DNA of 37,742 nucleotides from Laspinema palackyanum D2c (GTDB lineage Bacteria; Cyanobacteriota; Cyanobacteriia; Cyanobacteriales; Laspinemataceae): NCBI RefSeq assembly GCF_025370875.1, contig NZ_JAMXFD010000004.1:158935-196676 (forward strand), written 5' to 3'. This document shows, in pieces, positions 3,350 through 34,127 of the stretch; within the stretch, counting starts at the first letter, position 1, and the number at the start of each line of letters is the position of its first letter. A program made the position numbers and the translations under genes. The notes beneath the pieces are model-generated. The model was not told the origin of the DNA. It ran no database searches and saw only the letters and a list, made by a program, of their open reading frames with translations.

Positions 3350-3485
3350 GGATTCTTAAAATCAACCTGCTTGATGGTCGAACCCATATCCCCTCAAATT
3401 TTTACGGTGGAGAAGAAAGTTGAGAGACCTAAATCCCTAATCTGCTACAATTTCGATTTTAAAGTTCCATGTTCTGGCAAAAATT

Positions 3486-3742: not shown

Positions 3743-3784
3743 TATCATGAACCAATCCTGTCCTAAATGTCTGATTAAGCAACC

Positions 3785-5365: not shown

Positions 5366-5389
5366 ACCCTAAAAAATCCCGGTTTGTCA

Positions 5390-5407
5390 TAACGCCTGAA
5401 GGCGTTA
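5390..5407. terminator. hairpin between convergent genes
   Basis: TAACGCC and GGCGTTA pair around a TGAA loop in the short gap between the convergent oxidoreductase and GST genes. It abuts the GST stop codon. There is no strong U-run, so it may serve as a bidirectional 3'-end or RNA-stabilising hairpin, or be a small dispersed repeat. Confidence 0.5.
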
Positions 5408-6460: not shown

Positions 6461-6549
6461 AATGCCCCCTTTGAATGGTGTAAATTTAGGAAAACCTTTT
6501 TCGGTGTTGCAAGAGTTGAATCCTACGCCCACCGAAATGCCTTGCTATT

Positions 6550-7056
6550 TTAATCGGGTAATTGTTCTTTCAGGGAAGAAATAAGGGCAGAATCAAGCTT
6601 GAGTTTTACCTCAATTAATCGGGTTGTATCTCGTAAAATTAACATTTGATTGTCTTCTACAAAAATTTCGGGTTCTTTCAAGGTCAAAGTTTGATATTTT
6701 AAGGCAGCGAGTTCCATCTGCATGACGAGGGTGGGTTGGGATTGGGGATAAATGTAGAGTTGCTGGCGTTTGGGGTCGAGTTGCAGTTGTCTGACGGTGG
6801 TATTGCGTTCGTCTGACATTCCGGGTTTTGACCAATAGAGGGTAATGCCGCGTATATCCGGGTTGGCGATCGCAAAGGTTTCGTCAAAGCGTTGGGGTTC
6901 CCAATCCAAGTCTCGAACATCGCCGGTTTCCGACAGGATGCGCTGGCGCAAGGTGATCTCTTTGCCATTGAGATTGCGCCACCATTGCCGGATTGTCTCG
7001 AAATTTTCACCCATCTCGGGATTGCTATTCCCAGACTGCCAAGTGATGAATTGCAC
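6550..7056 (-). CDS. conserved-looking hypothetical protein
   Basis: A 168-residue soluble protein of unrecognised family. A GTG start is chosen because AGGAGG sits six bases upstream; the in-frame TTG at 7080 lies upstream of that site. The N-terminus is QFITWQSGNSNPEMGENFET. The middle and C-terminus alternate short beta-type strands (ITLYWSKPG, QLYIYPQSQPTLVMQMEL, EIFVEDNQMLILRDTTRLIEVKLKL), suggesting a beta-barrel or sheet protein. No signal peptide, membrane segment or catalytic motif is obvious. It precedes the GST gene on the same strand by 89 bases and is divergent from the HDAC-like gene. Functions such as phycobilin lyase were considered but no supporting motif was found. Confidence 0.75.
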   Translation of the reverse strand: MQFITWQSGNSNPEMGENFETIRQWWRNLNGKEITLRQRILSETGDVRDLDWEPQRFDETFAIANPDIRGITLYWSKPGMSDERNTTVRQLQLDPKRQQLYIYPQSQPTLVMQMELAALKYQTLTLKEPEIFVEDNQMLILRDTTRLIEVKLKLDSALISSLKEQLPD

Positions 7057-7152
7057 GATCGCCCTCCTGATTCCTATCAATAATTCCCATTTTAGAGTTT
7101 AAATTAGATTTTAAAGTTGACTCGGTACCGGCAACGCTAACCCTTCCCTGAC

Positions 7153-8070
7153 ATGGACTTACCCATCGTTTATCATCCGGACTATGTGGCCCCTATGCCT
7201 CCCTCCCATCGGTTCCCGATGGAGAAATTTCGGTTACTCTATGAAATGCTTGTAGGCGATCGCGTTGTCACTCCCGAACAGTGTCACACCCCGGAATTGC
7301 CCCCCCAGGACTGGATTGAATCGGTCCATGTCCCCGCCTATGTCCAGGCATACTGCCAAGGCACTCTAGACCCCAAAGCACAGCGACGGATTGGATTACC
7401 CTGGACGGAGGCGATCGCCCATCGCACTTGTATCTCCATTGGTGGGGCAGTTTTGACGGCTAAATTGGCATTAGAGTTTGGATTAGCGTGCAATACTGCC
7501 GGAGGAACTCATCATGCCTTTCCAGATTTTGGGTCCGGATTTTGCATTTTTAATGATTTGGCGATCGCCTCGCGGATGATCCAACAATTAGCGGGAATTC
7601 GCAAAGTCTTAATTGTGGATTTAGATGTGCATCAAGGGGATGGGACAGCATTCATTTTTAAAAATGACCCGGATGTATTTACCTTTTCCATGCACTGTGA
7701 GGCTAATTTTCCCGGGCGAAAACAAATCAGTGATTTAGATATACCCTTGCCGGTGGGAATGGAGGATGATGAATACTTGCAAACCGTCGCCGGTTATTTA
7801 CCGGATTTACTCGACCAATTCCAGCCGGATTTAGTCTTGTATGACGCCGGAGTGGATGTTCATGCAGGCGATCGCCTGGGTAAATTAGCCCTGAGTGATA
7901 CCGGGATTTTTCGCCGGGATATGCAGGTGCTGAGTACCTGTCTGGCAGCTAGATATCCCGTTGCCTGTGTGATTGGGGGCGGATATTGCGAGGATATGCG
8001 AGGGTTGGTGTATCGTCATTCGCTCTTACATCGTGCTGCCGCGCAAGTGTATAGGCAGTATCGACTTTAG
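7153..8070 (+). CDS. histone deacetylase-family (class IV/AcuC-like) amidohydrolase
   Basis: A 305-residue protein of the arginase/deacetylase fold. The His-His pair of the charge relay is in NTAGGTHHAF (His120-His121). Predicted zinc ligands are Asp158 and His160 in DLDVHQGDGT and Asp235 in AGVDVHAGDRLG, with the transition-state Tyr in VIGGGYCED. All catalytic residues expected for the family are present, so it should be active. Bacterial members deacetylate proteins (AcuC), polyamines or small acyl-amines; the substrate cannot be deduced here. The short N-terminus (VYHPDYVAPMPPSHRFPMEK) is typical of the HDAC11-like bacterial branch. No clear ribosome site precedes the ATG. A palindromic repeat begins seven bases after the stop. 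Confidence 0.92.
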   Translation: MDLPIVYHPDYVAPMPPSHRFPMEKFRLLYEMLVGDRVVTPEQCHTPELPPQDWIESVHVPAYVQAYCQGTLDPKAQRRIGLPWTEAIAHRTCISIGGAVLTAKLALEFGLACNTAGGTHHAFPDFGSGFCIFNDLAIASRMIQQLAGIRKVLIVDLDVHQGDGTAFIFKNDPDVFTFSMHCEANFPGRKQISDLDIPLPVGMEDDEYLQTVAGYLPDLLDQFQPDLVLYDAGVDVHAGDRLGKLALSDTGIFRRDMQVLSTCLAARYPVACVIGGGYCEDMRGLVYRHSLLHRAAAQVYRQYRL

Positions 8071-8077
8071 GTCGGGA

Positions 8078-8223
8078 GGCAACACCCGGCGGGGGTTTTA
8101 ACCCCCGCCTAACAGCTCAAGTCGGTTGAAACCGACTGAAAACACCACTGTATCAGGCTTGCAGTCGTCTTTAGACGACTTGATTCTATTAGGCGGGGGA
8201 TTTATCCCCCGCCGGGTGTTGCC
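8078..8223. repeat. palindromic intergenic element, copy 1
   Basis: Terminal arms of about 34 bases (8078-8111 and 8190-8223) pair with roughly three mismatches. Each arm is itself a hairpin of GGCGGGGG and CCCCCGCC type. The interior contains AGTCGGTTGAAACCGACT and AGTCGTCTTTAGACGACT hairpins plus AAAACACCACTG. The same building blocks recur at 35911-36048 and 37508-37742, so this is a dispersed non-coding family, perhaps a non-autonomous mobile element. It may also act as a 3'-end structure between two convergent genes. Confidence 0.8.
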
Positions 8224-8238
8224 ACTGGTGCAAGATCT

Positions 8239-8290
8239 CAGTTTCAACCGACTTGATCTATGAGCCGGGGGATTTATACCCCGCCGGTTG
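8239..8290. repeat. degenerate partial copy of the palindromic element
   Basis: Beside copy 1, TTTCAACCGACTTGA followed by GCCGGGGGATTTATACCCC and GCCGG repeats one arm of the element with losses. It ends just before the stop codon of the WD40 gene on the other strand. It suggests repeated insertion or unequal duplication at this place. Confidence 0.6.
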
Positions 8291-8295
8291 GACTA

Positions 8296-9879
8296 CTACT
8301 CCCGTTCCAAAATTCTCACCATCCCTTTAGCACTACCACTAACCAGAAATTGTCCATTCGGACTATAAACTAAAGACATCACGGCCCCACTTTCTTCCGT
8401 CAAAGCACAGACTAATTTACCCGTGGGTAAATGCCAAATCTTAACCGTCCCATCGGCGCTACCTGTAGCAAAACTGTTGCCATCGGGGGCGATCGCCACT
8501 GCGGTGACGGGTCCTAAATGGGCGCTCAGACTCCACAGCAGTTCTCCCGTTTCCAAATTCCAGAGTTGAATATTGCCATCGCCACTGCCTCCGATTAGGA
8601 GTTGTTGGGGAGAGATGACGATCGCTTCTACCGCCTCTAAACTGCCATTGAGGACCGAAATCGGCTGTTTGGTTTGGAATTGCCAAAGGGTAATCGTGCC
8701 ATCCCCACCGCCTCGGGCGAGAATTTGACCATCGGGGGAAATGGCGAGGGAAAAGATGGGTCCGGTATAGTCCGTGAGGGTATCGATTAATTCCGCTTTG
8801 GACAAATCCCACAGTTTAATTGTCTCGTCAAAACTGCCACTGACAAGGGTGTTGCCATCGGGGGCGATCGCCAAGGCGCGCACAGAACCTCCATGTCCCG
8901 TGAGGGTTTGTTTGGGAATTCCGGTCGGGAGTTCCCAGAGTTTGATGGTTTTATCCCAACTGGCAGAGGCGAGGGTTTTGCCATCGGGGGCGATCGCAAT
9001 GGAAAAGACCCCGCGTTTGTGTTCGGCGAGCACTTGCAACAGTTCCCCGGTGGCGAGTTTCCAGAGTTTAATACTGGTGTCAAAACTGCCCGTTGCCAGG
9101 ATTTGTCCATCGGGAGTAATCCCCAGCGATCGCACCCAGTCGGCATGGGCGGGCAAACTGTGGCGACATATCCAATTCTGGGCCGTGGGTTCCGAAGGGG
9201 CCGCAAAGGACGGCAGGACGACTTTTGACGAGGGCGGTTTGGATTTGGCGGTTTGAGCAGGGGTTGCCGATGTCGCCGGTTCCGGTTGCGGAGGAAGTGG
9301 GGGTGGCGGTTCCGGTTGCGGGCGCGGTGGGGGTGAGGGGACCACGATTTGCGAGGTTAATTGGGAAATTGCCTCTTCCACTCGTTCTAAGCGGTAGGCA
9401 AAGGATGAGCGATTCAGATAGGCGATCGCATTGCCCAGACTTTCATCTAACAGGGCATATTGCTCTTTCAACCCGGCGATTTCCCTTTGAATCTGGGAGA
9501 GGTCCACCGATTCTAATTTACCCAATCGGGTTTGCAACAGGGCCAACTCCTCCGGGGACCCGGTAGCTACGGGGGGGCGAGTGCCTTCCTCCCCTTCGAC
9601 TTGAGGGAGGGGAAATTGCTTCTGAGCTTCCACCCGTTGGGTGAGCATCTCCAGTTCTTCCGCCCATTGACGATGCAGGCGATTTGTGGTGCCACTGACT
9701 CGGCGAGTTTGGTGTTCCAGACGATACCGGACGATCGCATTCAGAATCAGGGCACTGCAAATGAGCAGGGCGGCGACATAGATGGCCCCATTAAAAAAGA
9801 CTGCCACTATCGACGCCACCACCGACGCGAACAAGGAAGCATATTCTACAGTTTCTAGCCAATGACGGTGATTTGACAT
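8296..9879 (-). CDS. membrane-anchored WD40 protein with seven repeats
   Basis: A 527-residue protein. Two closely spaced hydrophobic segments at about residues 13-50 (YASLFASVVASIVAVFF and YVAALLICSALILNAIV) predict an N-terminal membrane hairpin or anchor. A charged, probably coiled-coil stretch of about 120 residues follows, then a Pro-rich linker near 185-205. Seven WD40 repeats run from about residue 245 to the end (WVRSLGITPDGQILATGS and similar, with KLW/KIW closings), enough for a complete propeller. No catalytic domain is present, so it is probably a membrane-tethered scaffold (inference). The ATG is chosen with AAGGA upstream; a GTG six codons earlier is the alternative. Blades 5 and 7 are the most degenerate. 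Its repeat style is similar to that of the STAND protein at the left edge. Confidence 0.88.
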   Translation of the reverse strand: MSNHRHWLETVEYASLFASVVASIVAVFFNGAIYVAALLICSALILNAIVRYRLEHQTRRVSGTTNRLHRQWAEELEMLTQRVEAQKQFPLPQVEGEEGTRPPVATGSPEELALLQTRLGKLESVDLSQIQREIAGLKEQYALLDESLGNAIAYLNRSSFAYRLERVEEAISQLTSQIVVPSPPPRPQPEPPPPLPPQPEPATSATPAQTAKSKPPSSKVVLPSFAAPSEPTAQNWICRHSLPAHADWVRSLGITPDGQILATGSFDTSIKLWKLATGELLQVLAEHKRGVFSIAIAPDGKTLASASWDKTIKLWELPTGIPKQTLTGHGGSVRALAIAPDGNTLVSGSFDETIKLWDLSKAELIDTLTDYTGPIFSLAISPDGQILARGGGDGTITLWQFQTKQPISVLNGSLEAVEAIVISPQQLLIGGSGDGNIQLWNLETGELLWSLSAHLGPVTAVAIAPDGNSFATGSADGTVKIWHLPTGKLVCALTEESGAVMSLVYSPNGQFLVSGSAKGMVRILERE

Positions 9880-10184
9880 GGAGTCCTTCCCACCCACCGG
9901 AGCCTATATTACAATTCCCATTTTATCCACAATCCCCCTTATCTTTCCATTTTATGGAGAAATGTTGATATAAGGGGGATAAAAATTTTTCAGTCAAACC
10001 GGACACCATTGATAATGAATTTTCCGAAAAATTGTCATCCTGACTAACAAGGATGTATCTAGTTTCAACCCGAAGCATTTGAGTCTTAAAAATCGGGTAA
10101 AAAATCAATAAAGCAGTGAATCAATCCGATTTTTAAGGGTTGGCCCCCTCGTTATTGATTCAATCTGCTGTTACAAAGAAAAAT
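9880..10184. other. non-coding spacer with one inverted repeat
   Basis: About 300 bases upstream of the WD40 gene and downstream of mgtE. ATCCCCCTTAT (9932-9942) and ATAAGGGGGAT (9970-9980) form a perfect 11-bp inverted repeat with an A/T-rich flank. A 61-codon minus-strand frame is present but lacks a convincing start or composition. No promoter is assigned. Confidence 0.5.
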
Positions 10185-10211
10185 CCCCACCCTGAAAGCA
10201 GTGGGGTGGGG
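10174..10211 (-). terminator. Rho-independent terminator of the downstream mgtE
   Basis: On the minus strand CCCCACCC and GGGTGGGG form a perfect 8-bp G/C stem (10211-10185) followed by ATTTTTCTTTG. It begins five bases beyond the stop codon of the mgtE copy ending at 10216. Confidence 0.85.
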
Positions 10212-10215
10212 AAGA

Positions 10216-11616
10216 TTACAATCCGAGAAATAGCTTGGCAATATTAAAGTAAATGAGAACACCCAAAACATCGACAGCCGTGGTAATAAACGGCGCTGAC
10301 ATTAGGGCGGGATCTAACTTGATGGCGCGGAATAAAAACGGCAGGGCCGAACCGGATACCGAGGCCAAAATTGAAATAGCAATCAGAGAGATGCCGACAC
10401 AGAAGGCCACCTGGAGATTGACTTGCAAGAGGAAATAAGCCCAGATGGTGGCGAGGGTTCCCAAAATTGTCCCCAGTAATGCACCGGCAATTCCTTCGCG
10501 AAAGACCACCTTCAGGGGTCCGAGTAAGCGAATTTCATCGGTATTCATCCCGCGAATCACCACCGTGGAAGACTGGGCACCGACATTCCCTCCCGTACCT
10601 GTAAGCAGGGGGATAAAGGCGGTGAGGACGACCACTTGCTGCAATAAGTCTTGTTGGGAATTAATAATGGATCCGGTGACAGTATTGGTAAGCAATAAGA
10701 CGAACAGCCACACGACACGCCGTCGCGCCACTGTCCATAAACTCATTTCAAAATAATTATCCCCATCGGTTTGGACCCCACCCAAGGCATAAATATCCTC
10801 AGTGGTTTCCTGTTCCATGATGTCGATCGCATCATCGATGGTGATGACGCCGACTAAGCGTTGCTCGCGATCGACTACGGGGATCGCTAGGAAATCATAG
10901 CGTTGAATCAGGCGCGAGACTTCCTCGCCGTCGGTATCTGTATGGACAAATACCACATCCCGAGTCATAATTTCACTAATTTTTTCCTCGGGGGAACTAA
11001 TCACCAAGTCACGCAGGGAAACGATTCCGGTTAACCGGCGTTCGCTATCCATGACGTAGAGGTAATAAATAATTTCCGCTACTGGCGACAGGGTGCGAAT
11101 CCGTTCCAGGGTTTGGGCAACGCTCATATTTTCCCGGACGGAAATATATTCCGGGGTCATGATTCTCCCGGCGGTTCCCGATTCATAGCCCATCAGCAGG
11201 GCGGTGGACTGCCATTCTGTGGGAGACAGTTGTGCCCGCAATCGGCGCACGACTTTTGAGGGCAACTCATCCAGCAGTCGGGCGCGATCGTCCGGGGACA
11301 TATTGCCAATGATATCCAGAACGTCCTGGCGCTTGAAGTCTTCTAAAAGCACCTGTTGGACGCTGGTATCGAGATGTTCGTAAACTTCCGTTGCTTCCTG
11401 TTTGGACAACAAGCGAAAGGCGATCGCCTGCATCGCTTCAGGCATTCCTTCGATCGCTTCGGCGATATCCACAGGTTGAACCGGGACTAAAATCGCTTTA
11501 GCTCCCTGGAGGTCCCCATTTTTGAGGAGGGCTTCCAGTTGCGATCGCACTAAGTCAGGTATTTCTCTCCGCGACAGGGTCCCGAGAGGAGAGGATATCG
11601 GTTGAGGTTCAGTCAC
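10216..11616 (-). CDS. mgtE: MgtE-family Mg2+ transporter, copy 1
   Basis: A 466-residue Mg2+ channel/transporter of the inner membrane. The soluble MgtE N domain (about 20-135) has DIAEAIEGMP and MSPDDRARLLDELP. A tandem CBS pair (about 140-265) contains GRIMTPEYISVREN and FLAIPVVDREQRLVGVITIDD. The C-terminal pore domain (about 285-466) has GTGGNVGAQSSTVVIRG and ITTAVDVLGVLIYF, whose Asp corresponds to the pore Mg2+ site known in Thermus MgtE. The cytosolic domains sense Mg2+ and close the pore. The start is GTG with GGGAG six bases upstream. It follows a paralogue by 115 bases on the same strand, likely one transcription unit, and ends at a strong terminator. Confidence 0.95.
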   Translation of the reverse strand: MTEPQPISSPLGTLSRREIPDLVRSQLEALLKNGDLQGAKAILVPVQPVDIAEAIEGMPEAMQAIAFRLLSKQEATEVYEHLDTSVQQVLLEDFKRQDVLDIIGNMSPDDRARLLDELPSKVVRRLRAQLSPTEWQSTALLMGYESGTAGRIMTPEYISVRENMSVAQTLERIRTLSPVAEIIYYLYVMDSERRLTGIVSLRDLVISSPEEKISEIMTRDVVFVHTDTDGEEVSRLIQRYDFLAIPVVDREQRLVGVITIDDAIDIMEQETTEDIYALGGVQTDGDNYFEMSLWTVARRRVVWLFVLLLTNTVTGSIINSQQDLLQQVVVLTAFIPLLTGTGGNVGAQSSTVVIRGMNTDEIRLLGPLKVVFREGIAGALLGTILGTLATIWAYFLLQVNLQVAFCVGISLIAISILASVSGSALPFLFRAIKLDPALMSAPFITTAVDVLGVLIYFNIAKLFLGL

Positions 11617-22969: not shown

Positions 22970-23135
22970 AAGGGGGGTATCAGAACCCTGACAAGAGTAG
23001 GGTTTTTACATTCAGGGGGATTTTCCTGTGCAGTGATACCTTTAAAAACGAGTAGGGTGGGCATTGCCCACCTGCACAGAAAGGTGGGCAGTGCCTTTTA
23101 CTTTTACCAACCGGATTCTGTATGATACCCCCCTT
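22970..23135. repeat. 166-bp element bounded by 13-bp inverted repeats
   Basis: AAGGGGGGTATCA (22970-22982) and TGATACCCCCCTT (23123-23135) are perfect inverted termini filling the gap between two convergent genes. Inside are ACAAGAGTAGGG, shared with the repeat at 22149, and GGTGGGCATTGCCCACC (23056-23072), plus a second partial copy of that palindrome. It looks like a MITE-like or composite repeat; it may also provide the 3' ends of both transcripts. Confidence 0.65.
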
Positions 23136-23137: not shown

Positions 23138-25486
23138 TTATGATTGCTCAATCTGTTGGCGGATTAAGCGTAGTAAATCGCGGGTTTTATAGGGTTTAGA
23201 TAAATAGGTGGGGGAACTATTCTCTCCCGATTTAGAGAGGGGAAGATTGCTGACGAGTCCGCTCACGGCAATAATTTTAACTGAGGGATTAATTTTTTGG
23301 AGGGCTTTTAAAGTGAGCGCTCCATCCATTAAAGGCATCATCATATCCAGAATCACCACAGCAATTTCTGAGGACCGTTGACTGTAGAGGGAAATGGCTT
23401 CCATGCCATCAGCAGCGGTTAAAACATGATAGCCAAATTTTTGCAGGAGGGCTTGAGCAATTTCGCAAATGGCAACTTCATCATCTACGACTAAAATTAA
23501 CTCACCGGAGCCAAAACAGAGTTCGGTGGGTTCTGAAGTGAGAGCTTGAGTTCCCTGAATGGCAGGCAAGTAGACGGTGAAGGCGGTGCCTTTCTCCACT
23601 TGACTGGAAACCAATAAAAAACCCCCATGATTTTTAACGATGCCTCGAACCGTGGGCAACCCTAATCCAGTGCCTTTTCCTAATCCTTTGGTGGTAAAAA
23701 AAGGTTCAAATAAGCGGCCTAAAATTTCCGGAGGGATGCCGGTGCCGGTATCTCGAACCGTGAGTTTAATATAAGCGCCAACTTTAGCCTCAGGGTCTAG
23801 GATTAACTCGGATTGGGTGAGGGTGATATTTTGAGCTTCAATGGATAAAATGCCCCCGTTGGGCATGGCATCGCGAGCATTGACGCACAGATTCATCAGG
23901 ATTTGATGGAGATGAGTCGGGTCCCCGGAAATTAACCAGAGTTTGGGGTCGATCGCCGTGGAAAGTTCAATGGATTTGGGAAAGGTTTCCCGGGCGATCG
24001 CCGTGATTTCATCAATCAGGTGTTTGAGTTGGATCAGGGTGCGATCGCCATCTAACCCTTTAGCAAATGAAAGCACTTGTTTCAGCAGGTCCGCACCGCG
24101 CAAGGTATTAATTTCTAGCATGGAAATTAAGCGCATTTGCTGGGCGTTTAACGGGAACATTTGCAGCAGTTGCACCGCCCCTAAAATGGGGGTGAGAATA
24201 TTGTTCAAATCATGGGCAATGCCACTAGCTAAGGTGCCGATACTTTCGAGGCGTTGCGCTCGCAAAAACTGGGCTTCTAGTTGTTTTTTCTCGGTAATAT
24301 CCGTATTCACCGCGAGGATGGAACGGGGGCGATCGCGCTCGTCCCGCACCAGGGTCTGGCGACTGGCAACGGTGATGCATTTACCCGATTTGGTGACTTG
24401 CTCTAACTCTCCATGCCATTCCCCCGTTGTGAGGACCGTTTGCTCCACCCTGTTGAGCTCTGTAGCGCTTTTAACATCAAACAGCTGACTGCTGGTTTGG
24501 GCGAGCGCTTCCTGGCGGGTCCAACCATATAATTTTTCTGCCCCTTTATTCCAAAACCGAATATTCTGCTCAAGGTCTTTGACCCAAATTGCATCGGTGG
24601 CAACGTCCAGGAGGGCTGCCTGCTGGCGCACCTGTTCTTCGGTGCGTTTGCGCTCAGTGATATCATATAAGGCCCCCACAATTTCTTCACCCTGCTTCGG
24701 CCCCCGGCAAATCAGCTTCATTTCATCTCGCACCCATCCATAGCTGCCGTCGGAGTGCTGGAACCGATACTCGCTGAGGGCATGACCCGTCTGGTACAAC
24801 TGTTTGATGCTGGAGAATAGTTCCGGTGCATCATCGGGATGAAGGCGATCGCGCCAAAACGAGCAGTCTCCGATAATTTCTTCCGGTCGATATCCCAGAT
24901 GTTCAAGAATATTCTCACTCACAAAAGTCGGACAATAGGGCTGATCATGGGGGCAAGTATAAATCACTGCCGGACTAGAAGACAACAAATATTGAAACTG
25001 GGTTTGAGTCGCGAGCAGCGCCGATTCAGTCCGTTTTAATTCCTTAATTTGATGTTGGAGTTCCGACTCCCGCAGGACCCGTTCTGTGACATCTTCAATC
25101 GTGGCGATCGTGCCAATCACCCGAGATTCTTCCACAATCGGAGCAATCCGGGCACTTTGGAGCATATAAGGCACACCCTTATAAACATCGGCTGGGAGCA
25201 TGGGTAACAAAAACCCATGTAAGCGCTGAGAGAGCAGAGCCACTTGTCCGGCGAGAGCTTGGTGAAAAAATCGATCTAATCGCCGGTGCTTTAATTCGGG
25301 ATAAATTTCTAGTAAATTTCTCCCCACCACCCGCTCCCCATTCAACCCACTATAAAGTTCCAGCCAATGATTCCAACTTTGGATATTTAACCCTGCATCG
25401 GTCGTAAATATTCCTCGGTCTGCTAAGTCATTGACCCAGTGAAGGAAGTCCTGATTAGAGTTGAAAGGGTCGGTGATCCTGCTCAT
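23138..25486 (-). CDS. PAS hybrid histidine kinase with C-terminal receiver
   Basis: A 782-residue cytosolic sensor kinase; no membrane segment is seen. Order: PAS-like domain (about 20-135, ending IATIEDVTERV), PAS/PAC (about 160-280, LGYRPEEIIGD, YDITERKRTEEQ), PAS (about 290-400, LYGWTRQEALAQ, NTDITEKKQLEAQ). Next come HisKA with phospho-acceptor His425 in GIAHDLNNILTPI, HATPase_c with NLCVNARDAMPNGG, VRDTGTGIPPE and GKGTGLGLPTV, and a receiver with VVDDE and Asp714 in VILDMMMPLMDG. The HDLNN H-box is the NtrB-like HisKA type seen in many PAS-PAC kinases. It is the third gene of a same-strand group: a CheC gene ends 40 bases upstream and a CheY-like gene precedes that. The signal is unknown. 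Confidence 0.93.
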   Translation of the reverse strand: MSRITDPFNSNQDFLHWVNDLADRGIFTTDAGLNIQSWNHWLELYSGLNGERVVGRNLLEIYPELKHRRLDRFFHQALAGQVALLSQRLHGFLLPMLPADVYKGVPYMLQSARIAPIVEESRVIGTIATIEDVTERVLRESELQHQIKELKRTESALLATQTQFQYLLSSSPAVIYTCPHDQPYCPTFVSENILEHLGYRPEEIIGDCSFWRDRLHPDDAPELFSSIKQLYQTGHALSEYRFQHSDGSYGWVRDEMKLICRGPKQGEEIVGALYDITERKRTEEQVRQQAALLDVATDAIWVKDLEQNIRFWNKGAEKLYGWTRQEALAQTSSQLFDVKSATELNRVEQTVLTTGEWHGELEQVTKSGKCITVASRQTLVRDERDRPRSILAVNTDITEKKQLEAQFLRAQRLESIGTLASGIAHDLNNILTPILGAVQLLQMFPLNAQQMRLISMLEINTLRGADLLKQVLSFAKGLDGDRTLIQLKHLIDEITAIARETFPKSIELSTAIDPKLWLISGDPTHLHQILMNLCVNARDAMPNGGILSIEAQNITLTQSELILDPEAKVGAYIKLTVRDTGTGIPPEILGRLFEPFFTTKGLGKGTGLGLPTVRGIVKNHGGFLLVSSQVEKGTAFTVYLPAIQGTQALTSEPTELCFGSGELILVVDDEVAICEIAQALLQKFGYHVLTAADGMEAISLYSQRSSEIAVVILDMMMPLMDGALTLKALQKINPSVKIIAVSGLVSNLPLSKSGENSSPTYLSKPYKTRDLLRLIRQQIEQS

Positions 25487-25526: not shown

Positions 25527-26171
25527 TTATGAAGAAATGGAAAGGTTAGGGGGCGCTATCTCCTCACTGGCCCACTTATCAATCTCTTCGAGTAATTTCT
25601 CTAAAGAGACCACACTCAAGACCATGACTAAATACCCGTGAATGGAATTTTCCTTCATCCGAAATCCGGTATAAACCACCATTGCATACCGCATTTCCGC
25701 CTTACCAATGCTCAGAGAATGGAGTAACCCATCCAAGGCTTCTAAATGTAAACGAGGAACGGAAAAGGAGATTTGCATTTGTAACAAATTTCCAAAGACA
25801 CTCAGGCAGGCGTTGAGTAAAATATTGCCAATTTCCGTGAGCACTTCGGCCGCCGAGGCATCGAGGCGATCGCGATGGATATCTTGTTCTGGAGTCACCA
25901 ACTCGGTCAGTTGCACCGCCCCATCATAGTTCAACAATAACAGGGCATTGCCTGAAACCCGTCCGGTAAAAATTTGCTGGACTGTGGCAATTTCACCCTT
26001 GACAAAGGTCCCGAGTTTGGCACTGAGTTCTTCAATCGGGTGAATGGAAACCTGGGGAACCTCTAATAACACCCGATGACCCGTAAGTTCCGAAAGGGCC
26101 GAGGCGGTGCGAGCAAAACCCATATTCAGCAGTTCGCTTAAGGCATCCTGTTGGGTTTCTGTCAGTTTCAT
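25527..26171 (-). CDS. cheC: CheC-family phosphatase of CheY-type receivers
   Basis: A 214-residue CheC-like protein. The family has two pseudo-symmetric active sites of form [D/S]x3Ex2Nx22P. Site 1 is complete: Asp9, Glu13, Asn16 and Pro39 (DALSELLNMG...EVP). In site 2 the Glu, Asn and Pro are conserved with identical spacing (TEIGN...SVP), but the first position is Glu rather than Asp or Ser. The protein should dephosphorylate CheY-P or a similar receiver. Its start overlaps the stop of the CheY-like gene by four bases, strongly indicating translational coupling and that this receiver is its substrate. No cheA, mcp or cheD is in the window, which is unusual for a chemotaxis adaptation protein. 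Confidence 0.92.
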   Translation of the reverse strand: MKLTETQQDALSELLNMGFARTASALSELTGHRVLLEVPQVSIHPIEELSAKLGTFVKGEIATVQQIFTGRVSGNALLLLNYDGAVQLTELVTPEQDIHRDRLDASAAEVLTEIGNILLNACLSVFGNLLQMQISFSVPRLHLEALDGLLHSLSIGKAEMRYAMVVYTGFRMKENSIHGYLVMVLSVVSLEKLLEEIDKWASEEIAPPNLSISS

Positions 26172-26545
26172 CCTACCCCTCCCGGGATCCCTTGGAGGAC
26201 CTGATTGACCATCTCCAGAACCGCATCGGGATTATAGGGTTTAGTCAGATATCCCAATGCTCCGGCTGCCATCACGGAAGCGCGGGTCAGTTCTTGCAGG
26301 TCAGCAGTTGCCATCACGATCCGGGCGCGATCGTCGAAGGCGAGTAATTTTTCCAGCACTTCGGTTCCCTGCATATCTGGCATCGCGATATCCAGTAAGA
26401 CGAGATCGGGTTTCTCTATATAGTAACTCTCAATGCCCATCAATCCATTTTTGGCCTCAATAATCGAGTAGCCTTCGCTCTGGAGGATGCGACGCAGTAT
26501 TCCCCGAGAAAGGGTAGAGTCATCCACAATCAAAATTTTTGCCAT
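26168..26545 (-). CDS. CheY-like single-domain response regulator
   Basis: A 125-residue stand-alone receiver. The acidic pocket Asp8-Asp9 is in KILIVDDS, the phospho-acceptor Asp52 is in LVLLDIAMPDMQG, the switch Thr is in IVMATAD and the Lys in GYLTKPYN. There is no output domain, so it signals by protein contact. The ATG giving MAKILIVDDS is chosen, with AAGGA about nine bases upstream; an in-frame start 11 codons earlier is less likely. It overlaps the following cheC-like gene by four bases, and a hybrid kinase follows that. It probably accepts phosphate from one of the neighbouring kinases (inference). Confidence 0.93.
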   Translation of the reverse strand: MAKILIVDDSTLSRGILRRILQSEGYSIIEAKNGLMGIESYYIEKPDLVLLDIAMPDMQGTEVLEKLLAFDDRARIVMATADLQELTRASVMAAGALGYLTKPYNPDAVLEMVNQVLQGIPGGVG

Positions 26546-26705
26546 TGCCTTGCGTCCTTCTATCGGATTGGCAGTCAAGCTCTAACCCTGAGATTGAGGG
26601 AGCCAGCTTTATCGCGGGTCCGCTTCATTTCGCCCCGAATTTGTTCATGCCCTTATCTTAACTCTGAAGGGGAATGGTGGATAGCCGGATCTTCCAACTC
26701 CTCTT

Positions 26706-29700
26706 TCACAAAGTCGAGGCTAACTGAGCGAGGACTTTCGCTAATTGGGCGGCTTCTACAGGTTTAGGGAGGTGTTTTTGAAAGCCTGCTAGGAGGGATT
26801 GGGCCCGGTCCTCCTCCGAGGCAAATGCCGTCAAGGCGATCGCCGGAATATGACGGTTGCGGTCCGCTTCATACTGGCGGATTTGGTGAATTAAGTGATA
26901 TCCGTCTTCTCCAGGCATTCCAATATCGCTGACTAAAACATCAAATTTGAATTGGTCCATCACGGCGATCGCCTCAGAAACCGAAGTCACCACCTGAACC
27001 CGCACCCCGTAATCCGTCAGCATTGCCTCCATTAAATCCCCGGTATCCGGGTCGTCATCCACCACTAACACCTGCAACCCATCCAGGGCCCAGAGTTGAC
27101 TCGACAATCCCTCTTCTTTAGAGGAAGAAGTCTGGAGAGCTTGCTGTTGTGGCGGTTTGGGCAGAATCGGTAACTGGACAATCAACGTGGCCCCTTGGCC
27201 TTCACCCTCACTCAGCGCTTGGACCTGGCCCCCGTGGAGTTCCACTAAGTGACGGACGATGGTCAATCCTAACCCTAATCCCCCATAAGCGCGAGTCGTA
27301 GAACTATCGGCTTGACGGAATCCATCAAAAATATGGGGCAGAAAGTCTGGATGGATGCCAATTCCCGTATCCTGAACCTGGAGGGTAATATAGGAATCCG
27401 TCTGGGCGATCGCCACGGCAATTTGCCCCCCTGACGGGGTAAACTTGATCGCATTAGACAACAAATTCCAAGCCACTTGCTGCAAGCGATCGCTATCTCC
27501 TGAAATCAAGGCGATCGCTGGGTCAACGTTGAAATCAATCTCAATTCCCTTAGATTCAGCAGTCGGAATCATCGTATCCAGGGCCGCTTCAACAATCGGA
27601 ATTAAATTTAACGGACGCAGTTGTAAGCGAATTTTGCCGCGAATAATCCGAGAAACATCCAGGATATCATCAATCAAACCAACCTGTTGTTTAGCATTGC
27701 GCTCGATAGTTTCCAAGGCTTTCTTCTGCATGGTTTCATTCAGATTGCGAGTCCGCAGCAACTGAGTCCAGCCCAGAATCGAATTGAGGGGGGTGCGAAG
27801 TTCATGGGAAACAATGGATAAAAACTCATCCTTAATTTGATTGGCCTTAACTAATTCTTCCGACTGTTGCTGTTGGAGAATCAAGGCGGCTTCCAGTTCT
27901 CGCTTATGGAAAGCCAGTTCCGAGGCGAGGACTTCTACATCGGAGTTTTGAGAGGTCAACTCCTGCTGTAACAAATCCCGCACTCGTTTAATGGCGATCG
28001 CATTGCCCACCCGCGCCCGCAATTCTTCCACAGAAAAGGGTTTCATCAGATAATCTTGGACCCCTTCACGCAATAACTGCACCCGCAAATCATCATCATC
28101 TTTCGCCGTCAACATGATAATGGAAACATTGGCGAAATCTGGATTACTGCGTAATAAAGACACCAGGCGATCGCCGCCAATTTCGGGCATCATCACATCA
28201 CTCAGGATTAAATCCGGATGCAGAGTGAGTGCCTGTTCCCACCCTTCCTGCCCGTTAAACGCCGTAGCAATTTGATAGTCCCGTCCCAGGATATCGCAGA
28301 CAAAGCGATTCATTTCCCGGTTGTCTTCCACAATTAAAACCAGGGGGCGAGGGTCATTGGCAAGGAGAATCGAGGGAGTGGTCTCGACTTCGAGCTTCAG
28401 TTCCGCGATCGCAGATTCAGCCAACTCCTCCCAGAGGGAAGATTCGGAAGCCGTTTTATGGAGATCTGGGAAAACCTCTAGGGGAAGCTGGACCGTAAAC
28501 ATCGCCCCACCTAGGGGTGCATCCGAGACGGTAATCGTCCCCTGATGAAGTTCGACAAATTCCTTGACAATCGCCAATCCCAACCCTGTCCCGCCAAAGC
28601 GACGGGTACTCCCCCCTTCAATTTGGCTAAACCGCTCAAAGATGGTTTCGCGCAGTTGCGAGGGAACCCCTGGACCACTATCTTGGATGGCGATCGTCAC
28701 CGGATTGTGAGTTCCCTCCCCCCCTTCCAGAGACAGGGAACAGTCAATTTGGCCTCCCGGGGGGGTGAACTTAAACGCATTGGAGAGTAAGTTTAAAACC
28801 ACCCGTTCGATTTTTTGGCGGTCCAATTGGGTCCCCAAGGACTCGGGAGTTTTGATATTGAGGGTAATTTCCCGTTCGAGGGCTAAAGCGTCAAAGTTCG
28901 CTGCCACTTGGCGGATCAGACTCGCCAAGTCCAGGGGAACCGCTGCCAGTTCCATCTTGCCTGCTTCTAGCTTAGAGATATCCAGGAGATCATTAACCTG
29001 TTTGAGCAGCATTCGGGCATTGCGTTCGATTACCAGCAGGTCCCGGCGTTGTTCCTCCAAGAGTTGGCGATCGGCGAGCAACTTCTGAGTCGGGCCTAAA
29101 ATTAAGGCCAGGGGGGTTCGCAATTCGTGACTGACATTGGCAAAAAATTGGCTTTTGAGTTCGTCGAGTTGCTTGAGCTGACGATAAAGGGCTTGTAGTT
29201 CTTGATTGGCGCGTTCCAGATTCAAGCGGCGTTCTTCTGAAATCTGAGCCGAGTCCAATAATTTTAAGGCTCGGGGAATTAACGGGGGTAAAGAAATTGC
29301 CGTCGTCACTGAGGCCAGGGCGGTGAGTAATTTCACATTTCCCGATAACCAGTAGGTGGGATTCCATAAGGTCCAGACTGCGAGAAAATGGGTCATGCTA
29401 CAAGCGATAATAAAAGCCCCAAAGGCCAAAAACATCCAATGGAAGGGGATATTTGGCCGCGCCTTATAAACAAAATAAGCAAGGCTAGTCGAAATGGCGA
29501 CATAGGCGACGGCAATCAGGGTATCTGATGTCACATGAAGCCACACTAACGAGGGCTTCCAGAGATAACAATGGCCGTGGGGAATAAACCCATCCTTTGC
29601 GAAGAGATTCGCCAGCAGGTCGGGCCAGAGCAGGAGAGTTAAGAGGGCTAGGAACCCCACTATACTACTACCTAATAGAATTTTTTGGGGCTGGCTACTG

Positions 29701-29795
29701 TTGGTTGGGGGGGGATTTTTTAATGCTGTTTCCTCAGTTTCTGGACTAAGAGTGGCAAGATTAAGATTAATTTTTTTCATAAGATTTTCAAGCAT
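26706..29795 (-). CDS. ethylene-receptor-like double hybrid histidine kinase
   Basis: A 1029-residue membrane kinase. After a first hydrophobic segment (about 40-60), a three-helix ethylene-binding-type domain spans about 78-185. Asp91 and Tyr98 (SDTLIAVAYVAI) and Cys132/His136 (IIACSMTHFLAVWT) align with ETR1 Asp25, Tyr32 and the copper ligands Cys65/His69, and Ile35 and Ile62 equivalents are kept. Ser stands where ETR1 has Pro36. A coiled coil follows, then HisKA (His223, ANVSHELRTPLAL), HATPase, receiver 1 (Asp533, ILSDVMMPEIGG), a second HisKA (His664, IVSHELRTPLNSI), HATPase, and receiver 2 (Asp957, VSDIGMPGEDG). Two full kinase-receiver sets in one chain are unusual. It is a cousin of Synechocystis SynEtr1. 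Two ATGs (29795, 29780) are possible; neither has a strong ribosome site. Confidence 0.92.
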   Translation of the reverse strand: MLENLMKKINLNLATLSPETEETALKNPPPTNSSQPQKILLGSSIVGFLALLTLLLWPDLLANLFAKDGFIPHGHCYLWKPSLVWLHVTSDTLIAVAYVAISTSLAYFVYKARPNIPFHWMFLAFGAFIIACSMTHFLAVWTLWNPTYWLSGNVKLLTALASVTTAISLPPLIPRALKLLDSAQISEERRLNLERANQELQALYRQLKQLDELKSQFFANVSHELRTPLALILGPTQKLLADRQLLEEQRRDLLVIERNARMLLKQVNDLLDISKLEAGKMELAAVPLDLASLIRQVAANFDALALEREITLNIKTPESLGTQLDRQKIERVVLNLLSNAFKFTPPGGQIDCSLSLEGGEGTHNPVTIAIQDSGPGVPSQLRETIFERFSQIEGGSTRRFGGTGLGLAIVKEFVELHQGTITVSDAPLGGAMFTVQLPLEVFPDLHKTASESSLWEELAESAIAELKLEVETTPSILLANDPRPLVLIVEDNREMNRFVCDILGRDYQIATAFNGQEGWEQALTLHPDLILSDVMMPEIGGDRLVSLLRSNPDFANVSIIMLTAKDDDDLRVQLLREGVQDYLMKPFSVEELRARVGNAIAIKRVRDLLQQELTSQNSDVEVLASELAFHKRELEAALILQQQQSEELVKANQIKDEFLSIVSHELRTPLNSILGWTQLLRTRNLNETMQKKALETIERNAKQQVGLIDDILDVSRIIRGKIRLQLRPLNLIPIVEAALDTMIPTAESKGIEIDFNVDPAIALISGDSDRLQQVAWNLLSNAIKFTPSGGQIAVAIAQTDSYITLQVQDTGIGIHPDFLPHIFDGFRQADSSTTRAYGGLGLGLTIVRHLVELHGGQVQALSEGEGQGATLIVQLPILPKPPQQQALQTSSSKEEGLSSQLWALDGLQVLVVDDDPDTGDLMEAMLTDYGVRVQVVTSVSEAIAVMDQFKFDVLVSDIGMPGEDGYHLIHQIRQYEADRNRHIPAIALTAFASEEDRAQSLLAGFQKHLPKPVEAAQLAKVLAQLASTL

Positions 29796-30020: not shown

Positions 30021-33000
30021 TTAGATTAAGCCTGTTTGTTGGGCAATTTCCGCGAGGGCAGTTGCTAATTTCAAGGGTTCCACAGGTTTAGCAACATGAA
30101 GATGAAATCCGGCTAAAAGGGCCTGTTGACGATCCTCTTCCCGAGCGAAAGCGGTCAAGGCGATCGCCGGAATCGGCTTAGAGTATCCCGCCTCACGCTG
30201 GCGAATTTTGCGGATCAAAACATAGCCGTCTTCATCGGGCATTCCGATATCGGAAATTAAGATATCATGACGCGATCGCTCCGTAGCGGCTAAGGCTTCG
30301 GCAGCCGATAAAACTACCGTCGTCTGGACTCCATATTCCGCTAGGACTTGAGCAATCAACTCTCCCGTATCGCGATCGTCATCCACCACCAGCACCTGTA
30401 AACCGGCGAGGTTCAACGAATGGTTCGCCATTGCTTTCTCGTCCCCAGTCAGGGAATCGGGAGCGGGGTGAGAGTTCTGGGAGACTCCGATGGGGAGTGC
30501 TACGGTAAAGGTTGAGCCAGTCCCTTCTCCCAGGCTGAAGGCAGAGATGGTCCCCCCATGCAGTTCGACGAGGTAGCGCACAATAGTTAAGCCTAGACCG
30601 AGACCCCCGTGGGTGCGGGTGGAGGAACTGTTGGCTTGGCGGAAGCCCTCAAAGACGTGAGGTAGGAAGTCCGGACTAATTCCAATCCCGGTATCCTGAA
30701 CCTGAAATTCTAGGTAATTCCCCACCCGATCGATCGCCACCGTCACCCGTCCATCATTGGGGGTGAATTTTACGGCATTAGAGAGCAGATTCCAGACAAT
30801 TTGATGCAGACGGCTACTATCCCCTAAAATCGGCTGTCCGTAGGAGTTGAACTGGGTATGGATTTCAATCGATTTTGCTTCGGCTGCCGGAGTCAGGGTG
30901 GCGATCGCCTGTTCCACCAGAGTTTCCAGATACAAGGGAACTCGGTTCAGGCGAATTTTTCCGCGAACAATCCGCGAGACATCCAAGATATCGTCAATCA
31001 AAGTCACCTGATGCTTGGCATTGCGTTCGATGGTTTCCAGGGCTTTATTTCGCGTCTCTTCTTTCAGGCTGCGCGCACGGAGTAATTGCGCCCAGCCGAG
31101 AATGGAGTTGAGGGGAGTCCGCAATTCATGAGAGACGATCGCCAAAAATTCATCCTTGAGTCGGTTGGCTTTTTCGGCGCGATCGCGGGCTTGCTGCTGG
31201 GCCTCATAGAGGTTGGCCCGGTCAATGGCAAGTGCGACGCGATCGGCCACCAGTTGCAGCAAATAGACATCTTCTGCCATGAATTCTCGCGGCGACTCGG
31301 TACTGACATGGAGTACCCCAAGCACCCGGTCTTGTAACAGCATCGGTGCACCCATAATCGACTCGATTTTTTTATGTCGGAACAGTGGACTAATAACTTG
31401 AGCATGAGCATTGCGCTCAATCAGCATCGGTTGCCGAGTCTGGGCAATTTTGCCCGCAAACCCTAGCCCGATCGGGACGGGGATACTAGGAGAGAGGGGT
31501 TGCTCTAAATCTAAGCCTTTGGTGGCGGTCACTATTAAGGCCGTTTGGTCCTCATTGGTCAATAAAATAACGGCAGCATCTACTTCTAATACCACCGTGA
31601 GGCGATCGAGCAACTCTTGGAGTAGATCATGGAGAGACAAAGGGGCGATCGCCACATCCACAATCGCTTGTAATCGATGCACCATTGTCGTCGCCCGTTC
31701 GGACAAAATTCGGGCCGCTTTCTCCCGTTCCAACAACTCCATCCGCTCTTGCTGTGCCTGCTTGCGTTCGTGAATATCCGTATTCGTCCCAAACCACTTG
31801 ACAATCTCCCCCTGATGATCACGCATGGGCACTGCTAATCCCAGATGCCAGCGGTAAGCGCCATCGCCACCCCGACGCATCCGCGCTTCAATTTCATAAG
31901 GTTGTCCGTTTTCCAGGCAAACGGTCCACTTTTCGAGACATTCCGCCAAGTCGTCCGGATGCACGATCGGCTCCCATCCCCAGCCTAAAAGTTCCGTCTC
32001 GCTAAAGCCGGTGTACTCACTCCAGCGGTGACTCAGGTAATCTAGGGTCCCATCCGGTAGGGCAGTCCAAACCATTTGCGGAATCGCTTCGCTGAGGAAT
32101 CGATAATACTGCTCACTGGCTTCGGCTTGAGTTCGGGCGGCTTGTTCCAGTTGCAAGAGTTTAATCCGTTCCGCTTCCGCCTCTTTGAGGGGGGTAATAT
32201 CGATCACCGACCCAATGAACCCCAGTAAATTGCCTTCGGGACTCAACCGGGGAACCCCGGTTTCTAGCACCCAGCGATAGGCTCCATCCGCTCGTTGCAA
32301 GCGGTATTCTTGGGTAAAGGATTGGCTGGCTTTCACCGCTTGTTGGTAACTCAAGAGGCACGGGCCCTGGTCCTCGGGATGGATCCGACCCCAATGGTTG
32401 AGGTCCGGGTCCGCTTCCAGTCGCGCGCCAATGAAGTTTAAGCCCCATTTATTTAAAAAGGTCCACCGCCCCTGGCAATCCGCTACCCACAGCAGCACCG
32501 GGGCCGTATCTGCCATATCCCGGAAGCGTTTTTCACTGTCGCGCAGGGCTTCTTCGGCCTGTTTCCGTTGGGTAATATCATAGCGGATGGCTAAATATTG
32601 GAAGGGTTTTCCATGACTATCTAAAAACGGGACGATCGCCGTATCCACCCAATAATAAGTCCCATCTTTGGCCCGATTTTTAATTTCTCCTCGCCACACT
32701 TCCCCGCGAGCAATGGTTGCCCAGAGATTGAGAAAAAATTCTTTAGAATGATAGCCGGAATTGACCAACCGATGGTTTTGTCCAATCAATTCACTTTGGG
32801 AATATTTAGAAATTTCACTAAATTTATCGTTAGCATATTGAATCGTTCCTTTAGCATCCGTCGTCACCACAATTGCTGATTTATCTAAAGCAAATTGGAA
32901 ATCGGATAATTCTTTCAAGGTTTGTTGGAGTTCCGCTTCTGCCCGTTTGCGATCGCTAATGTCCCGCACCGATGCCATCCACACGGAGTGACCCAAATAG

Positions 33001-34127
33001 AGGGTCGGTTGCATAACTGCTTCTAGGATCACCGTTGTCCCATCTTTTTTGATCCCGACCGCTTCCGATGCTCCCTCCTGTGTCCATTGGCCCTCCTTTA
33101 ACATTAACGCTACCGTTTCCTCTGTAAAAATATAGGCTAAAGGCCGTCCGTTTAGTTCGTCCGGGTCATATCCAAATATCTTTTCCAAGGAGGGATTTAC
33201 GGCCATTATGCGATCGCCCTGATAAAATAAAATCCCTTCCACTGTCGATTCAGCGAGGGTTTTAAACCGTTGTTCACTCGCTCTGAGTGCCGCCGAAGCC
33301 TGCTTGCTTTGGGTGATATCTCGGCTAATTTTAGAAAACCCGTAAAGATTCCCCTGATTATCATATAAAGGTGTAATCACTTCATGGACCCAAAAGCGGG
33401 TTCCGTCCTTTCGCAGTCGTTCTCCTTCTTGTTCCCACCGTCCCTGTTCTACCGCCTGTTTCAAGTCTCGTTCCGGTTGACCTTGGGCCACCGCTTCTGG
33501 GGGATAAAAGCAGGAAAAATGTTGGCCAATAATCTCCTGGGGTGCATACCCTTTGAGGCGTTCTGCTCCCGGATTCCAGCTATTTACTCGTCCATCGGGG
33601 GCGAGCATATAAAGTCCATAATCTTCGATGCCCTCTACCAACAACTGAAACTGCTGTTCGCTGCGCCGAAAAGATTCGAGATGTCTTTGAGCAGTTCTGG
33701 CACTTTGGGAACACTGTTGTTTCTTTTGTTGCAATGAACCGATGGCGATCGCGATTGCCGATCCTTCCATTAGAAATAAAATTAACCGGAATGTTTGGCC
33801 CGGACTACTTTCTATCTGGGGATAAAGGGGAGATAAAAATAAGTAACTGCTGACTAATCCGGCCCCAAGGGTGGCTATCAGTCCCGCTTTCTTGCCCCCA
33901 AACCACGCACTGACCATAATCGCCGCAAAATACACCAAAAATGGGCTTTCCCGTAAGATTAAGGGTGCTATGGCGCTTTTAATCGCCGTGGCGAGGGTGA
34001 CACTGACGAGGGCAATGCCCACTGGGTGCAGGAATTGTAGCAATGGTGTTGAATACTGGTTTCTGGGGTAGCAAAGCTGAGGCAGTTTGCTAAATAGACG
34101 CAGGAGGACAGATGGACTTATTTTCAT
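30021..34127 (-). CDS. DUF4118-PASx5-GAF hybrid histidine kinase
   Basis: A 1368-residue sensor. The N-terminus has four hydrophobic segments (about 30-135) with VYFAAIMVSAWFGGKKAGL, the KdpD-like DUF4118 membrane module. Five PAS domains follow (about 155-790; examples LKGYAPQEIIGQ, IFGYDPDELNG, ISKYSQSELIGQ, YTGFSETELLGW), most closed by a PAC motif such as RDITQSKQ. A GAF domain (about 815-970) starts LQAIVDVAIAPLSLHDLLQE. HisKA has His1000 in IVSHELRTPLNSI, then HATPase_c (VQDTGIGISPDF, GGLGLGLTIV) and a receiver with Asp1293 in ISDIGMPDEDG. From HisKA to the end it is closely similar to the second core of the neighbouring ethylene-receptor-like kinase. Ligands are unknown. It starts at ATG without a strong ribosome site. 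Confidence 0.93.
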   Translation of the reverse strand: MKISPSVLLRLFSKLPQLCYPRNQYSTPLLQFLHPVGIALVSVTLATAIKSAIAPLILRESPFLVYFAAIMVSAWFGGKKAGLIATLGAGLVSSYLFLSPLYPQIESSPGQTFRLILFLMEGSAIAIAIGSLQQKKQQCSQSARTAQRHLESFRRSEQQFQLLVEGIEDYGLYMLAPDGRVNSWNPGAERLKGYAPQEIIGQHFSCFYPPEAVAQGQPERDLKQAVEQGRWEQEGERLRKDGTRFWVHEVITPLYDNQGNLYGFSKISRDITQSKQASAALRASEQRFKTLAESTVEGILFYQGDRIMAVNPSLEKIFGYDPDELNGRPLAYIFTEETVALMLKEGQWTQEGASEAVGIKKDGTTVILEAVMQPTLYLGHSVWMASVRDISDRKRAEAELQQTLKELSDFQFALDKSAIVVTTDAKGTIQYANDKFSEISKYSQSELIGQNHRLVNSGYHSKEFFLNLWATIARGEVWRGEIKNRAKDGTYYWVDTAIVPFLDSHGKPFQYLAIRYDITQRKQAEEALRDSEKRFRDMADTAPVLLWVADCQGRWTFLNKWGLNFIGARLEADPDLNHWGRIHPEDQGPCLLSYQQAVKASQSFTQEYRLQRADGAYRWVLETGVPRLSPEGNLLGFIGSVIDITPLKEAEAERIKLLQLEQAARTQAEASEQYYRFLSEAIPQMVWTALPDGTLDYLSHRWSEYTGFSETELLGWGWEPIVHPDDLAECLEKWTVCLENGQPYEIEARMRRGGDGAYRWHLGLAVPMRDHQGEIVKWFGTNTDIHERKQAQQERMELLEREKAARILSERATTMVHRLQAIVDVAIAPLSLHDLLQELLDRLTVVLEVDAAVILLTNEDQTALIVTATKGLDLEQPLSPSIPVPIGLGFAGKIAQTRQPMLIERNAHAQVISPLFRHKKIESIMGAPMLLQDRVLGVLHVSTESPREFMAEDVYLLQLVADRVALAIDRANLYEAQQQARDRAEKANRLKDEFLAIVSHELRTPLNSILGWAQLLRARSLKEETRNKALETIERNAKHQVTLIDDILDVSRIVRGKIRLNRVPLYLETLVEQAIATLTPAAEAKSIEIHTQFNSYGQPILGDSSRLHQIVWNLLSNAVKFTPNDGRVTVAIDRVGNYLEFQVQDTGIGISPDFLPHVFEGFRQANSSSTRTHGGLGLGLTIVRYLVELHGGTISAFSLGEGTGSTFTVALPIGVSQNSHPAPDSLTGDEKAMANHSLNLAGLQVLVVDDDRDTGELIAQVLAEYGVQTTVVLSAAEALAATERSRHDILISDIGMPDEDGYVLIRKIRQREAGYSKPIPAIALTAFAREEDRQQALLAGFHLHVAKPVEPLKLATALAEIAQQTGLI

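Follow-up and report, generated by a model that had tools for sequence, protein, structure and literature searches.

An N-terminal three-helix domain with copper residues, joined to a histidine kinase output, is common to SynEtr1 of Synechocystis, GeiEtr1 and GeiEtr2 of Geitlerinema and AzoEtr1 of Azospirillum, all of which have one kinase core and a PAS and/or GAF domain between sensor and kinase. An initial annotation of the DNA analysed here had described known cyanobacterial ethylene receptors as single-core proteins, and this holds for the two Geitlerinema receptors described (PMC6682694). Here we describe a receptor encoded in a stretch of 37,742 nucleotides of Laspinema palackyanum D2c (contig NZ_JAMXFD010000004.1, positions 158,935 to 196,676; hereafter the window) that has the same kind of sensor and output but, unlike these receptors, carries two kinase cores in one chain with no PAS or GAF domain ahead of the first. 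It belongs to a clade in which Pro36 of the plant receptor ETR1 is replaced by serine.

The receptor gene is an open reading frame with an ATG start, in which a Pfam scan identified an ETR1_N sensor and then HisKA-HATPase_c-Response_reg two times in series. The match to the ETR1_N profile scored 122.1 bits, above the curated cut-off of 27. The parts of the gene are as follows (aa, amino acids; AF2, AlphaFold2; REC, receiver).

26706..29795, minus strand: tandem-kinase ETR1_N sensor, 1029 aa (open reading frame and Pfam scan)
29604..29684, minus strand: extra N-terminal hydrophobic helix ahead of the sensor, aa 38-64 (AF2 and hydropathy)
29259..29549, minus strand: ETR1_N three-helix sensor domain, aa 83-179 (Pfam PF25487, E 1.1e-35)
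28476..29171, minus strand: kinase core 1, HisKA and HATPase, H223 (Pfam, motifs)
28002..28343, minus strand: receiver REC1, D533 (Pfam, motifs)
27846..28001, minus strand: helical linker from REC1 to core 2 (AF2 helix, invariant columns)
27141..27845, minus strand: kinase core 2, HisKA and HATPase, H664 (Pfam, motifs)
26721..27074, minus strand: receiver REC2, D957 (Pfam, motifs)

Both cores and both receivers appear catalytically complete by motif, with phosphohistidine motifs SHELRTP at 222 and 663 (H223 and H664), ATP-binding motifs NLLSNA at 335 and 777, G boxes at 372/401 and 809/838, receiver aspartate motifs SDVMM at 532 (D533) and SDIGM at 956 (D957), and receiver lysines at 585 and 1011. 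The doubled HisKA-HATPase-REC array that the initial annotation had read from the sequence is therefore real, and the four phosphorylation sites that it named are intact. That annotation had also raised a sequencing error or the fusion of two genes as an explanation, and we rejected an artefact of this kind because the same frame is kept in five other genomes (L025-L029; 1025-1030 aa stop to stop, 86-97% identical to the window receptor; three Laspinema, Phormidium pseudopriestleyi and Oscillatoria sp. HE19RPO) and the ratio of nonsynonymous to synonymous substitution rates (dN/dS) was low, 0.00-0.29, across the sensor, both cores and both receivers in five pairwise comparisons. The sensor had the lowest or tied lowest value of any domain in these pairs (0.00-0.10, against 0.39-0.49 for the N-terminal tail), and on this measure it is under strong purifying selection.

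In the AF2 model of the first 225 aa (predicted local distance difference test score, pLDDT, 75.7), the sensor helices span aa 81-112, 119-141 and 152-224, and helix 3 is drawn running straight into the HisKA domain of core 1. The whole-chain model likewise drew single helices, with low to middling confidence, at 148-240, from transmembrane helix 3 into the first HisKA domain, and at 589-682, from REC1 into the second. The extra N-terminal helix was modelled as two helices (aa 38-55 and 58-64), also with low to middling confidence, and has a hydropathy peak at 39-57. Within the sensor, hydropathy exceeded 1.6 only for helices 1 and 2, the peak of helix 3 being 1.53.

Alignment of the sensor with ETR1 gave the following correspondences, in a numbering of the aligned ETR1 positions that in part we presume.

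29523..29525, minus strand: Asp91, ETR1 D25
29502..29504, minus strand: Tyr98, ETR1 Y32
29490..29492, minus strand: Ser102, at the ETR1 P36 position; Ser in 36/36 clade rows
29400..29402, minus strand: Cys132, ETR1 C65 (copper ligand)
29388..29390, minus strand: His136, ETR1 H69 (copper ligand)
29286..29288, minus strand: Pro170, a clade-specific helix-3 proline, near ETR1 V106

Further equivalences were I35 with I101, I62 with I129 and K91 with K155. The alignment bears out the assignments of the initial annotation, namely D25, Y32, C65 and H69 kept as D91, Y98, C132 and H136, and serine in place of Pro36. Six of the seven residues reported as necessary for ethylene binding are thus kept and Pro36 alone is changed, so we do not file the window receptor with the proven type of ethylene receptor; it is an ETR1_N family member that probably works like one.

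The changed residue had been noted in a single protein. To place it, we aligned 129 sensor domains from named loci, the top 80 out of at least 566 relatives, a set that leans toward the query (duplicates at six loci, L001-L004, L105 and L109, were dropped). Position 36 was Pro in 89 of these domains, Ser in 38, Thr in 1 and Val in 1. When a tree was built without the position-36 column, 36 of these 38 Ser rows fell into a single clade that held no Pro row (Shimodaira-Hasegawa-like approximate likelihood ratio test, SH-aLRT, 96). The tree was a quick one, from 107 columns in 129 rows; 73 of its 124 inner branches stayed open, and L110 sat on a long branch. The two Ser rows outside the clade, L063 and L132, had lost further residues. 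Within the clade the copper site is kept, Cys65 in 35 of 36 rows and His69 in all 36; the outlier is L110, which has Ser36 with Gly at Cys65, lacks the helix-3 proline, and has a stop in its frame. The serine itself was thus correctly called, and on this alignment and tree it is a trait of the whole clade and not of one protein.

A sample of 386 genomes of the phylum gave a view less tied to the query. PF25487 matched in 90 of them, and 140 stretches taken from among the matches listed yielded 145 domains, 144 of them distinct, with Pro at position 36 in 132, Ser in 7, Ala in 2, and Val, Gly and Leu in 1 each. Position 36 was the most variable of the seven binding residues in this sample, though Pro predominates. 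An identity search of the same 386 genomes found five with a close clade member (69-100% identity) and a sixth, weaker member (56%) whose frame holds a stop.

Replacement of Pro36 is accompanied by other changes, which we quantified in 34 Ser rows and 89 Pro rows (L063 and L132, outside the clade, and L110 and L082, inside it, were excluded). Ser102 was present in all 34 compared Ser rows and in no Pro row. The helix-3 proline, Pro170, was found in 34 of the 35 clade rows with letters at that position (L110 lacks it and L082 has no letters there) versus none of the 89 Pro36 rows. Ala124 occurred in 31 of 34 Ser rows, where Pro rows have Leu (77), Met (11) or Cys (1); Val99 in 28, where Pro rows have Tyr (69), Phe (19) or Val (1); Ala161 in 29, where Pro rows have Ile (44), Val (40), Ala (3) or Leu (2); and Ala106 in 25, where the commonest residues of Pro rows are Phe (31), Val (25), Ile (23) and Leu (9). 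An additional loop residue (window 112) was present in 31 of 34 Ser rows and in no Pro row. Several of the linked changes, as read from the alignment, are thus from bulky to small side chains. In the phylum sample all five tandem proteins combined Ser36 with Pro170, which was found in no other domain that had lost Pro36 and in none of the 132 Pro36 domains. A protein located later, on a plasmid of Kovacikia minuta (L256), fitted this expectation, having Ser36, Pro170 and a pair of cores.

Other departures from Pro36 were also seen. The genome of the window has four ETR1_N genes; besides the window receptor, two have Pro36, one of them on contig C18, and the third, on contig C12 (L007), encodes a 1236 aa protein with Val at that position and no helix-3 proline. 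Four single-core ETR1_N proteins, L251, L246, L232 and L194, have Leu, Gly, Ala and Ala, respectively, Leu being the residue of tomato Never-ripe. A second ETR1_N gene at L063 (13624-16344) has D25, P36 and I62 replaced by His, Ser and Val, respectively, and looks decayed.

The tandem architecture follows the same clade. Using home-made profiles, which missed some HisKA types, we counted two cores in 30 of the 36 clade rows: the window receptor, 26 loci, and L235, L252 and L254 (the places of L108, L107 and L106, respectively, taken again). Two-core named members span nine families (Laspinemataceae, Oscillatoriaceae, Microcoleaceae, Leptolyngbyaceae, Coleofasciculaceae, Aerosakkonemataceae, Oculatellaceae, Aphanothecaceae and Trichocoleusaceae). 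Among the other six rows, L032 stops at a contig end after the second HisKA domain, L038 and L062 are each broken across frames, no judgement was possible for L082 and L110, and L047, with a GAF domain, one core and three receivers, is an exception to the layout. No protein with two cores was seen among the 69 ETR1_N genes of the locus table that lie outside the clade (66 with Pro36). Likewise, none of the 132 Pro36 domains of the phylum sample, which overlaps that set, had two HisKA-HATPase pairs; one Pro36 protein there, L176, had two HATPase pieces and one HisKA. The commonest form, measuring 865-933 aa between stops, is ETR-HisKA-HATPase-REC-HisKA-HATPase. The two-receiver layout of the initial annotation is therefore present here and in a minority of the clade: of the 30 proteins with clear tandem cores, 9 have a C-terminal receiver (the window receptor, L025-L029, L030, L051 and L254), and the other 21, among them L049, which is truncated by a contig end, have none. 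Six proteins (L030, L049, L050, L051, L061 and L254) have a PAS and/or GAF domain between REC1 and core 2.

The two cores have different histories. In a tree of 88 cores, with a long-branch warning among the comparison kinases, core 1 of all 27 rows formed one clade (99) apart from core 2, and on this ground we rejected internal duplication of one core. Core 2 changed label among other kinases eight times on the tree, four of these changes being forced by well-supported branches. Core 2 of the window group (6 rows) grouped with the core of the upstream neighbouring gene (5 neighbours; 99), and was 65-67% identical to that core versus 61-62% for the closest core 2 elsewhere in the clade. Apart from orthologues of the receptor itself, no core among the 88 was closer to core 2 than the upstream core and its orthologues. 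In the genome of the window, the two-core region had ten further strong matches, all confined to core 2. From this tree and these identities, sensor and core 1 travel together while the second kinase is exchanged: core 2 has been swapped repeatedly, core 1 has descended with the sensor, and the core 2 of the window group was probably acquired by copying between neighbouring genes, in either direction.

A chain of two kinases with a receiver between them (HK-REC-HK) has a precedent: LvrA of Leptospira has this order, and its first histidine reportedly transfers phosphate to the REC of the same protein (PMC5863495). The kinase of its REC-HK partner, LvrB, is reported to be more active with LvrA present unless the Asp of its own REC is changed (PMC5863495). 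LvrA and the window receptor have the order DHp-CA-REC-DHp-CA in common, with all phosphorylation sites present in the latter; LvrA differs in having no membrane domain and no described REC2. The window receptor may work like LvrA, and we do not file it as LvrA-type. Nor is the module confined to ETR sensors, since a protein on a Rhodovastum atsumiense plasmid (L255) has, by Pfam, two PAS, two HisKA and two HATPase domains with one receiver between the cores, its soluble PAS input standing in place of ETR1_N. Fungal dual hybrid histidine kinases, which are eukaryotic, also have two kinase modules per chain, with other sensors. This group is named in PMC5285503. No report of this clade, or of tandem cores with an ETR1_N sensor, was found among the best-ranked papers of the literature searched, which came mostly from outside subscription journals.

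The receptor gene lies in a run of genes on one strand.

30021..34127, minus strand: upstream PAS/GAF hybrid kinase (Pfam, core comparison)
26168..26578, minus strand: stand-alone CheY-like receiver (Pfam Response_reg)
25527..26171, minus strand: CheC-family protein, likely a phosphatase of phosphorylated CheY (Pfam CheC; CheC structures 2f9z/1xkr)
23138..25486, minus strand: downstream PAS hybrid kinase (Pfam, synteny)

The CheY-like and CheC genes overlap by four bases. The CheC protein scored 36.1 bits with Pfam CheC (cut-off 22) and its residues 1-195 matched 2f9z_A (E 6.9e-14); with the NCBIfam model CheC_Thtogales it reached only 80 of 250 bits. The order kinase-receptor-CheY-CheC-PAS kinase was found at L025, L026 and L029 as well as in the window; L028, whose contig begins close to the receptor gene, has the same order from the receptor on (receptor-CheY-CheC-kinase). 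A small same-strand receiver gene lies within ~750 bases at L015, L035, L039, L040, L042, L043 and L045, and AzoEtr1 too is reported to have a single-domain receiver gene just downstream (PMC11819568).

We consider the window receptor most likely to be an ethylene-type gas sensor that depends on copper and whose pocket has been remodelled. In the mechanism that we propose, the binding bundle has lost Pro36, gained the helix-3 proline and acquired smaller side chains with the copper residues kept; the ligand state of the three-helix bundle would be passed down helix 3 directly to kinase core 1, which would phosphorylate REC1; phosphorylated REC1 would gate core 2 through a continuous helix; and core 2 would phosphorylate an output receiver, REC2 and/or the adjacent CheY-like protein, which the adjacent CheC would reset. 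Gating of core 2 by REC1 is the likeliest mechanism because of the AF2 helices, the several invariant columns of the REC1-to-core 2 linker among 22 full-length proteins aligned, and the LvrA/LvrB precedent. We put the probability of the whole proposal, sensor and cascade together, at roughly 55%.

Several observations weigh against it. Pro36 is named among the residues essential for binding (PMC6586836), and the Pro36Leu receptor of tomato Never-ripe (ETR3) is ethylene-insensitive (PMC6727826); these reports back the importance that the initial annotation had given to Pro36, and ethylene binding by the window receptor may therefore be weak or absent. GeiEtr1 and GeiEtr2 (PMC6682694) and AzoEtr1 (PMC11819568) are reported with all seven binding residues. 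Overall, AF2 modelled the complete chain poorly (pLDDT 66.5; predicted template modelling score 0.32), and the NCBIfam LvrA model, although the best NCBIfam match of the window receptor, scored 634 bits, below its cut-off of 1200. For the output genes, L027 has the upstream kinase with no CheY or CheC within 3.9 kb beyond the receptor, CheC is in view at only 5 of the 32 Ser-clade loci tabulated, many with short flanks, and, of 18 CheC places besides that of the window, 13 have a receiver gene beside CheC and none of the 18 has an ETR gene in the ~3.5 kb seen. We therefore dropped CheY-CheC as a dedicated output of the clade; because such pairs occur elsewhere with no ETR gene nearby, it is, from this survey, a general pair sitting here beside the receptor. 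As to binding, loss of a canonical residue need not abolish it, since two mushroom receptors reported with two of three essential residues bound ethylene in yeast, at a level below AtETR1 (PMC9603746).

We advance more tentatively the broader idea that a cyanobacterial ETR1-type clade moved a helix-breaking proline from helix 1 to helix 3, shrank the surrounding side chains with the copper site kept and so retuned ligand or affinity, with sensor and core 1 forming one front end and the kinase behind REC1 a replaceable plug-in.

Among the alternatives, a change of ligand is possible, if rather improbable: the clade would have kept copper while loss of Pro36 and smaller residues let its pocket sense either a different small molecule, for example CO or a larger alkene, or copper. 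The coordinated changes in helix 3 and at positions 33, 36, 40 and 57, with the copper residues unchanged, would suit such a shift, and the other ETR1_N genes of this genome, two of them with Pro36, mean that ethylene sensing could be covered elsewhere; against it, no copper-handling gene was found among the 15 window open reading frames scanned by Pfam. Compatible with any of the ligand readings, and unlikely, is a receptor without a cascade, in which core 1-REC1 and core 2-REC2 would work as separate kinases joined in one chain. The motif completeness of both cores and receivers and the separate history of core 2 fit this arrangement, but the invariant linker residues and the many tandem proteins without a terminal receiver argue against it. 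It is doubtful that the sensor binds no gas and is a membrane anchor and dimeriser with constitutive or partner-driven signalling, as the abolished or blocked ethylene perception on Pro36 loss in plants (PMC6586836, PMC6727826) and the Gly at Cys65 of the outlier L110 might suggest, when the clade otherwise keeps both copper ligands and no domain is more constrained than the sensor.

Pro36 has been treated as a strict need for ethylene binding on the strength of ETR1 mutagenesis and tomato Never-ripe. A clade that lives without it across nine families, keeping the other binding residues (one outlier) with nearly constant partner changes, is a natural experiment, and its sensor could show whether Pro36 serves binding itself, affinity or coupling to output. 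Such natural variants are useful because a PDB sequence search with the sensor found no relative at E up to 1; a PDB fold search with the sensor model found nothing under E 0.001, and a phage search gave no matches. With its fixed front end and swappable second kinase, the tandem layout also illustrates clearly how a membrane sensor can be rewired by modules.

Minor observations concern the wider surroundings. CheC relatives were found in 16 of 194 genomes. At L259, seen longer as L277 (G157), a tandem ETR gene lies ~8 kb beyond the CheC, which differs from that of the window; a receiver-CheC pair and a seven-PAS kinase (2227-10365) stand there upstream of the tandem ETR gene on the same strand. 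Four genomes (G129 C6, G203 C161, G336 C93 and G099 C1) have, among the matches listed, pairs of ETR1_N matches ~1.7 kb apart on one strand, which suggests tandem receptor genes. A promoter and terminator scan of the window gave about as many sites as shuffled controls. Just past the last gene of the run, at 23059-23096, is a 15-pair hairpin with a terminator-like score on the plus strand.

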